DNA from: Gammaproteobacteria bacterium
GTDB taxonomy: Bacteria; Pseudomonadota; Gammaproteobacteria; Eutrophobiales; Eutrophobiaceae
Reading direction: 5' to 3'
DNA length: 53,845 bases
Assembly (NCBI GenBank): GCA_016179185.1
Contig: JACORW010000069.1
Span: 1-53,845, forward strand
Under the pieces are notes generated by a model. That model made no database searches, was not told the DNA's origin, and saw nothing but the letters and a program-made list of their open reading frames with translations. Below are positions 11,135-52,738 of the stretch, piece after piece (the stretch's first letter is position 1; every line of letters begins with the position of its first letter). The translations under genes and the position numbers were made by a program.

Positions 11135-11275
11135 CAGGTTGATGCAAAACGTCATGAGCGCAGCCAGTACAAGGCGCGAGCCCCCCCGAAACCGGAGCGT
11201 ACACGATAGTACGTGAGGATTTCGCGGGGGCGAGCAACGCCGTAATGGCAAGCGCAATAGTTTTGCATCAACCTG
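11135..11275 (-). repeat. 141-bp hairpin element between accB and accC (copy A)
   Basis: The ends are inverted repeats: CAGGTTGATGCAAAAC at one end and GTTTTGCATCAACCTG at the other. A second nested inverted repeat (GCCCCCGCGAAA against TTTCGGGGGGGC) lies inside. The minus-strand sequence matches 52270-52410 over its full 141 bp without gaps (123 identities). It begins on the nucleotide after the accB stop codon. TCAGGGT occurs on both sides (11123-11129 and 11276-11282), which may be a target duplication, but the left copy is 5 bp from the element end. No transposase is encoded. Confidence 0.85.
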
Positions 11276-16109: not shown

Positions 16110-16273
16110 CAGGGTGATGCAAAACTCCGTTTTGCATCACCCTGGTGGCGCCCCAGGGATGGGACGCAGCATTTATCAAGCATGCAAGTGCTTGATAAAT
16201 GGAGCAAGGCCGAAGCTCCGCTTTGGCCGCAGCGCGAGGCAAAAGTCCATGGATGGACTTTTGCATCAACCTG
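16110..16273. repeat. Five-hairpin composite element (copy C)
   Basis: Consecutive hairpins: 16111-16143 (stem AGGGTGATGCAAAA, 14 bp), 16148-16167, 16170-16201 (CATTTATCAAG/CTTGATAAATG), 16208-16228 (GGCC-AAGC) and 16239-16264 (GCAAAAGTCC/GGACTTTTGC). The whole is bounded by CAGGGTGATGCAAAA and TTTTGCATCAACCTG, the same terminal motif as the 141-bp elements. The first four hairpins recur inverted at 41054-41171. It lies between convergent genes. Confidence 0.8.
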
Positions 16274-41040: not shown

Positions 41041-41171
41041 TGCCTCTGGCTTCGGCCAAAGCGCAGCTTCGGCCTCGCTCCGTTTATCAAGCACTTGCGT
41101 GCCTGATAAACGCTGCGTCCCATCGGGTAGGCGCCGCAGTTTGATGCAAAACCCCGTTTTGCATCAAACTG
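41041..41171. repeat. Four-hairpin element, inverted truncated copy (copy D)
   Basis: Hairpins at 41054-41074, 41081-41112 (CGTTTATCA/TGATAAACG), 41115-41134 and 41137-41171. The last is a perfect 15-bp stem, CAGTTTGATGCAAAA against TTTTGCATCAAACTG, with a CCCCG loop. In reverse complement it follows 16111-16228 module by module, but the fifth hairpin and far terminal repeat are missing. It ends 7 nt before the next start codon. Confidence 0.8.
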
Positions 41172-51831: not shown

Positions 51832-52269
51832 TTGCGACGCCGCGCGCTGCTTCGGGCAACCGCGTTCCTGGCGCCGCTGCTGCGCCCGTTGCGGGCGCTG
51901 GCGCAATTGCGTTCGGGCGCGTTCTCCGCCACGAGCCTGGCGGAGGCGATGCGGGCGCTGTTCGGGGAGCGCGCGCCGGAGGCCTCCGACGCCGTGACGC
52001 TGGACGTGGAGCCGAAGATCGAAAACGGCGCCGTGGTGCCGGTGCAGATCAACGCCACCGTCGAAGGCGTCACGGCCATCAATATCTTCGCGGAACTGAA
52101 TCCCAACCCCCTGCTGGCGCGATTTCACCTCTCCCCGCGCTGCCGCCCAATTGTGGCAACGCGGGTCAAGGTCGGCGCGCCGTCGAATATTGTGATCGTT
52201 GTGGAGACCGAAGACCGGCTGCTGAGCACGAGGAAGTTCGTGGAGGTGGTCGAGGGCGGCTGCGGCTGA
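51832..52269 (+). CDS. soxY: Thiosulfate-oxidation carrier protein SoxY
   Basis: A 145-aa protein that carries sulfur intermediates on a C-terminal cysteine. It ends EGGCG, a form of the conserved GGCGG sulfur-binding tail, with C144. The N-terminus is basic with an RRR motif and a hydrophobic stretch, compatible with Tat export. The start is a TTG at 51832, 2 nt after the bepA stop; the ribosome-binding site is weak, so coupling is likely. soxZ follows after a 141-bp repeat element. Confidence 0.9.
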   Translation: MRRRALLRATAFLAPLLRPLRALAQLRSGAFSATSLAEAMRALFGERAPEASDAVTLDVEPKIENGAVVPVQINATVEGVTAINIFAELNPNPLLARFHLSPRCRPIVATRVKVGAPSNIVIVVETEDRLLSTRKFVEVVEGGCG

Positions 52270-52410
52270 CAGGTTGATGCAAAGCTATTGCGCTCGCCAT
52301 GACTTCGTTGCTTACCCCCGGGAAATCCTCACGTACTGGCGTGTACGCTCCGGTTTCCCGGGGGTTCGCGCCTCGTCCTGGCCGCGCTCATTACGCTTTG
52401 CATCAACCTG
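52270..52410 (+). repeat. 141-bp hairpin element between soxY and soxZ (copy B)
   Basis: Begins on the nucleotide after the soxY stop and ends 13 nt before soxZ. Ends are CAGGTTGATGCAAAGC and GCTTTGCATCAACCTG. The inner stem ACCCCCGGGAAA/TTTCCCGGGGGT is a perfect 12-bp match. It aligns without gaps to the minus strand of 11135-11275 (123/141 identical). Relative to the flanking operon the orientation is the same as in accB-accC. Confidence 0.87.
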
Positions 52411-52423
52411 TGCCTGACGGCAA

Positions 52424-52738
52424 ATGACCGGATCGATCCGCATTCGCACGACCCATCATGCCGGCTGGACCTCGGTGCGCAGCATCATCCGCCACCCGAT
52501 GGAGACCGGTTTTTCCGTGGACCCGGAAACCGGCCAGGTCATTCCTGCCCATTACATTACCGAGGTGCTGTGCCGGCACGGCGACGATCTGGTGCTGCGC
52601 TGTGAATGGAGCCGGGCGGTGTCGAGAAACCCGTACCTGTCCTTTGAATTCTCCGGGGCGCACCCCGGCGATCGTGTCACGCTATCCTGGACGGACAACC
52701 GCGGCGCATCGGATTCCGCCACGGTGGCCATTGCCTGA
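52424..52738 (+). CDS. soxZ: Thiosulfate-oxidation complex protein SoxZ
   Basis: Immunoglobulin-like partner of SoxY, 104 aa. Typical segments are RIRTTHHAGWTSVRSIIRHPMETGF, ITEVLCRHGDDLVLRCEWSRAVSRNPYLSFEF and the C-terminal GDRVTLSWTDNRGASDSA. It lacks a signal peptide, as expected, because SoxZ travels with SoxY. No other sox genes are visible in the window. Confidence 0.93.
   Translation: MTGSIRIRTTHHAGWTSVRSIIRHPMETGFSVDPETGQVIPAHYITEVLCRHGDDLVLRCEWSRAVSRNPYLSFEFSGAHPGDRVTLSWTDNRGASDSATVAIA

Follow-up and report, generated by a model that had tools for sequence, protein, structure and literature searches.

The 141-bp palindromic element that lies between soxY and soxZ is a member of a superfamily of repeats spread over many bacterial phyla. 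Members of this superfamily have lineage-specific terminal inverted repeats and a conserved hairpin tip, occur in varying copy number and, in this and several other lineages, have a YTRR sequence on one side in fixed orientation, which is very often the gene's own stop. We see about an even chance that the element is a selfish, MITE-like repeat of the non-autonomous kind, active in the form of a folded single strand and joining DNA next to YTRR sequences, which resemble stop codons. The element, its parts, its neighbors and its second copy in the window (the whole 53,845-nucleotide stretch of DNA that was analyzed) are as follows.

52270..52410, plus strand: palindromic element of 141 bp, its CTCACGTAC tip in the orientation of soxYZ
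52270..52285, plus strand: left terminal inverted repeat, CAGGTTGATGCAAAGC
52395..52410, plus strand: right terminal inverted repeat, GCTTTGCATCAACCTG, a perfect complement of the left repeat
52328..52353, plus strand: hairpin tip, CTCACGTACTGGCGTGTACGCTCCGG, the portion common to many phyla
52267..52269, plus strand: soxY stop codon TGA, adjoined by the element
51832..52269, plus strand: soxY (Pfam PF13501, 1e-25), its product ending in GGCG*
52424..52738, plus strand: soxZ-like ORF, 13 nt past the element, named from the first-stage annotation and its position behind soxY
11135..11275, minus strand: second copy, in the accB-accC gap, post-stop and co-oriented like the soxY copy

The soxYZ element is a near-complete inverted repeat with perfectly paired 16-bp ends, and it contains no consistent reading frame. 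A sequence-only reading had proposed that it is a second copy of the accB-accC element, and an ungapped comparison of the two copies, both 141 bp long, bears this out with 123/141 identical positions (87%). As that reading also described, both copies start directly after a stop codon in a common orientation to transcription: the 3' end of soxY reads ...GGC TGC GGC TGA and that of accB ...GAA CCC TGA, the next base in each case being the first of the element. Pfam assigns the upstream proteins to SoxY and to the biotin carrier domain (accB). The differences said to preserve pairing were likewise recovered when the copies were compared; pair 15 changes from A:T to G:C on both sides, and an inner stem with one mismatch in one copy is perfect in the other. 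The predicted fold of the sense strand of the soxYZ element has an energy of -81.4 kcal/mol, compared with -42.9 kcal/mol for shuffles (z = -10.1). The SoxY C-terminus (52255-52269) reads GGCG* here and GGCS* in the genus mate; the SoxY carrier motif is usually written GGCGG. The element-free sister lacks the terminal residue as well, so the insertion did not cause its absence.

This genome holds five full-length copies as well as longer versions of 189-253 bp with extra hairpins, and the string TGATGCAAARC occurs in it 75 times, versus 0 in the reversed form. Many hairpins of ~35 nt with the element's ends are also present; one of them, CAGTTTGATGCAAAACCCCGTTTTGCATCAAACTG, is at window positions 41137-41171. 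Exact tip matches number 7 in this genome, 38 in one Mesorhizobium and 38 in one Listeria. Across two genomes of the genus, 15 of the 23 copies with a left arm start directly after the stop (TGA, TAG or TAA) of a frame that spans 130 codons or more, one copy overlapping the stop by three bases. Proteins encoded by the adjoining genes include, by Pfam, a GyrA C-terminal domain, an EPSP-synthase family member (MurA-like), a MoaA-like protein, an ammonium transporter, an AI-2E transporter, an RNase T-fold protein (oligoribonuclease-like) and a short-chain dehydrogenase. The host proteins tested are ordinary and mutually unrelated, with natural-looking C-termini. One copy, L009, is reversed and lies behind a phage-integrase-family gene.

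The tip pattern CTCAYGTAC-N3-8-GTACRCTCCGS was found in 35 of 369 genomes of the class, covering 31 of its 272 sampled genera; the reversed pattern gave no match in the same 369 genomes. An all-species scan placed the tip in at least 117 stretches, and those listed include Bacillota, Chlorobi, Alphaproteobacteria, Rickettsia, Nitrospirae, Planctomycetes, Bacteroidales and others. About 20 chance matches are estimated for the whole 257-Gb collection, so that a lone tip match proves nothing. The surroundings of the tips are not a product of chance, as 138 of 211 tips extend into high-scoring palindromes of 100-215 bp. Tips sit centrally in imperfect palindromes of 120-165 bp with lineage-specific ends, conservation reaches beyond the search pattern (98% T at -2, 88% T at +11), and G/C positions flanking the tip co-vary proportionally. 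The tip thereby links Mesorhizobium, Listeria, Paenibacillus, Chlorobium, E. coli and many uncultured lineages.

Of 5426 E. coli genomes, 5375 carry a repeat of this family, at ~5 copies each, which may be the classical RSA repeat; our literature searches on RSA did not confirm that name for it. The enterobacterial intergenic repeat has the same tip and palindrome as the element but different arms, and the copy inspected lies ~44 nt behind the ucpA stop. Near a Klebsiella copy, Rfam places AsdA, an antisense RNA of dnaA mRNA (L140:2873-2953), which is probably an unrelated neighbor. Descriptions of short palindromic repeats usually concern a single genome at a time, and Rfam lists part of the present family under a Xanthomonas sRNA.

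Placement and orientation, which the sequence-only reading had named as a check on its proposal, are far from random, both in the genus (15/23, above) and phylum-wide. Using simple ORF calls on 185 elements, we found, in 66 of 113 cases, the 3' end of a sense gene between -18 and +6 nt from the left end of the palindrome, compared with 12 of 77 for an antisense-gene 3' end at the right palindrome end (p = 2e-9, a value that ignores kinship). A stricter test considered stops that lie between -4 and +5 of an element end and close a frame of 100 codons or more. By this measure a sense stop adjoins 24/71 left ends versus 2/71 right ends phylum-wide and 18/25 left versus 4/25 right ends in Mesorhizobium, while control windows displaced upstream gave 0-5 and 0-2, respectively. 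Deposited annotation agrees for several of the plasmid copies, where genes for a replication initiator, an aldehyde dehydrogenase and a DUF3237 protein end at the element. Docking is not a universal property: the class-wide set shows it less strongly (11/63 left, 7/63 right), and one Listeria subfamily lies 2-4 nt behind some stops whereas another has no post-stop placement. A stop created by gene truncation was rejected as the origin of this arrangement; at the sites compared, stops align with those of empty orthologues and Pfam domains reach near the C-termini. Literature searches for post-stop repeats returned nothing matching, and no paper was found that prints two of four core strings.

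The four bases that precede the element are mostly YTRR, and most targets in this genus are CTGA. In three copies on alphaproteobacterial plasmids (L518, L519, L523), a TAG adjoins the element and the annotated gene stop is 11-46 nt upstream; in L002, the adjoining TTAG ends only an 8-codon frame. Because such stop-like triplets adjoin the element without being gene stops, the motif belongs, at least in part, to the DNA sequence of the site. These same four copies, together with the Listeria subfamily that is not post-stop at all, make it very improbable that the element recognizes translation termination itself, whether through the mRNA stop or the terminating ribosome and, for example, by RNA joining followed by reverse transcription. 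Such recognition would be consistent with the use of all three stop codons, the fixed orientation and the location of most clean Mesorhizobium copies (18/25) at the stop of a long frame.

In Mesorhizobium, native stops predominate, which argues against a plain motif; by a rough estimate, YTRR preference combined with purifying selection predicts clearly fewer native stops than the 18/25 observed. There the triplet complementary to the stop often stands at the right end, and at three of the loci compared the kind of stop is not the one seen in the empty orthologues. It is possible, though we put this forward tentatively, that the elements form a non-autonomous hairpin class, spanning phyla, that selects native stop codons in fixed orientation, with a putative enzyme moving it via the antisense strand and docking serving as a harmlessness strategy; some lineages would carry the stop triplet within the terminal repeat. 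Oriented stop docking is a sharp, testable property, and if the element truly selects stop codons, it would represent an integration system that is safe by nature, with both neighboring genes left intact.

Which strand folds bears on whether the hairpin acts in host mRNA. On the gene-sense strand, most mismatches in the stems are A.C, which correspond to G.U on the opposite strand, with A.C versus G.U counts on the gene-sense strand of 112 versus 6 in Listeria, 51 versus 8 in Mesorhizobium and 131 versus 41 in a third set. The consensus fold of 19 Mesorhizobium copies is -62 kcal/mol for the sense strand versus -83 kcal/mol for the antisense strand. The antisense strand folds better in 79/86 copies phylum-wide, 38/38 in Listeria and 23/25 in Mesorhizobium, also with DNA parameters; in the window's own genome it does so in 3 of 5 copies, a set too small and too uniform to settle the question of strand. 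Covariation, the other check named by the sequence-only reading, is strong where copies suffice. On the Mesorhizobium antisense strand, 97.2% of cells are paired and 18/53 pairs are changed on both sides, with 0/500 shuffles as high. A mini-ORF on the bottom strand (GGAG...RTGAG) was rejected, as frame 0 is no more open than frame 2 and lengths range over 3-51 codons.

Selection on a transcribed hairpin, as originally suggested, is thus upheld insofar as pairing is kept, covariation is present and placement is nonrandom, but not as regards a hairpin in the host-gene mRNA, given that the antisense strand folds better and copies decay. A single-stranded DNA hairpin would yield equal covariation, so covariation cannot separate RNA from single-stranded DNA. 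Overall, the fold is constrained, or undergoes correction in hairpin form, though not in the form of host-gene mRNA.

A cis-acting RNA in the 3' untranslated region of the upstream gene, affecting mRNA stability, termination or intercistronic control, would account for the sense orientation, the exact post-stop position and the strong covariation; the mRNA strand also folds stably, and the accB-accC and murA-like loci are occupied in two species. A further point in its favor is Rfam RF02228 (sX9), whose model, 76 nt long, spans the tip and the right arm in a relative of the element (L101; 51.6 bits, gathering 44). sX9 is a listed Xanthomonas sRNA with copper-responsive copies (PMC10924375) and is reported to be one of the annotated bacterial sRNAs with the highest prevalence (PMC9029176). 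The model differs from the element in representing the 3' half only, on the gene-sense strand, without the palindrome, the stop docking or the better-folding opposite strand; the window copy gave no match to it even at E = 10. We consider this explanation unlikely. Across the superfamily, the mRNA strand has A.C mismatches and is less stable (the few copies of this genus do not decide the matter), the host genes are unrelated, and orthologous copies are decayed or missing. Because the antisense strand folds well, orthologous copies decay and the sister soxYZ has no element, a function in the mRNA 3' untranslated region is unsupported.

In the genus mate, soxY has the same stop position (TAG), soxZ follows 15 nt on, and there is no element. 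This empty spacer of 15 nt, set against the 13 nt to the right of the element, indicates a clean insertion (or loss) with no visible duplication. The accB and MurA-like insertions are common to both species of the genus; at a third locus, this genome has a 253-bp version and the genus mate has only a hairpin of ~40 nt with the same ends and stop. Mesorhizobium likewise shows empty orthologous sites. A copy linked to NifU is degraded in one of its three carriers and missing from most relatives, and at a second locus compared a mere fragment is left in a relative. Decay of orthologous copies favors a selfish element, and together with the empty sites and the occurrence of the same ends at unrelated genes it supports a mobile selfish repeat. 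Counting against this reading, the stems are kept better than simple decay would leave them.

In the selfish-repeat reading that we prefer, the element would propagate in single-stranded, folded form, using the strand antisense to the adjoined gene, as the strand preference suggests. This form is probably a single-stranded DNA hairpin acted on by a putative transposase or recombinase, and joining would occur next to YTRR. Copies at stop codons may survive because both neighboring genes remain intact. At soxYZ, the element would then be a passenger that the host tolerates and that widens the gap between soxY and soxZ from ~15 nt to 154 nt. We know of no mobilizer that accounts for oriented docking at stop codons.

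Direct repeats of 4 bp flank 28 of 138 superfamily members, compared with 5 expected, in some lineages; a target duplication is missing at soxYZ and at most copies. Also in this genome is a composite element of ~160 bp that is flanked by 4-bp YTAR direct repeats (CTAA/CTAA, TTAG/TTAG, TTAA/TTAA). An example of ~164 bp at window positions 16110-16273 has TGATGCAAAAC ends with TTAG on each side and represents a further family class. An ordinary DDE-type MITE with a 4-bp YTAR duplication, in which TAA or TAG inside YTAR regenerates the left stop, selection preserves this left repeat alone and the right repeat drifts, would be consistent with the YTAR repeats around this related composite (six pairs), with the excess of 4-bp repeats, with one 141-bp copy flanked by TTAG/TTAG and with Mesorhizobium right flanks that, by eye, resemble worn YTAR. 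We nevertheless regard this origin as rather doubtful. Most targets in the genus are CTGA rather than YTAR, and of three copies, the near-identical L002 and L005 have no repeat whereas L004 has one. Moreover, because YTAR equals its reverse complement and the two ends are symmetrical, no orientation bias is expected unless selection acts, and without selection the 24:2 and 66:12 biases are unexplained. DDE_Tnp_1 was found neither in this genome (86% complete) nor in the 38-copy Listeria, and a resident DDE_Tnp_1 transposase was rejected as the mover.

No autonomous insertion sequence with the same ends was seen in the incomplete assemblies of this genome (G000), G004, Chlorobium, G165 and G378. 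The element resembles MITEs derived from DDE insertion sequences (YTAR or TNA targets) in being short, non-coding and multicopy, with terminal inverted repeats and some 4-bp duplications. It differs from them in that no parental insertion sequence was found in these assemblies, duplications are mostly lacking and orientation to the stop is fixed. We also rejected, for this genome, copying of the outer stems from host flanks, as the same ends stand at unrelated genes; nor was such copying seen in the empty sites.

Like REP, REPIN and BIME sequences, which are moved by RAYT (Y1_Tnp), the element is an intergenic palindrome with a single-strand hairpin and a fixed flanking tetranucleotide. It is longer, however, and its flank is YTRR, not the GTAG or CGTC tags given for REP-type sequences (PMC3733652). 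RAYT/Y1 was rejected as a universal mover, because Y1_Tnp is absent from a 22-copy genome and in G000 the corresponding genes have no repeat ends nearby.

Integron attC sites are oriented imperfect palindromes behind a gene's stop that are active as a folded bottom strand. The element differs from them in conserving its tip rather than its base, and no cassette array or integrase context was seen; its ends (CAGGTTG...CAACCTG) are, by eye, unlike the attC ends RYYYAAC...GTTRRRY.

In genome G371, which has 22 tip copies, the stretches L248-L256 have TATA-flanked ends (TATAGTCTTCGCACATG) and no clear stop docking, and offer a useful contrast. At L153:5244-6240, two members lie 850 bp apart behind UspA-like and NifU-like genes (names by eye); their tips are identical, and their self-complementary outer stems are quite different.
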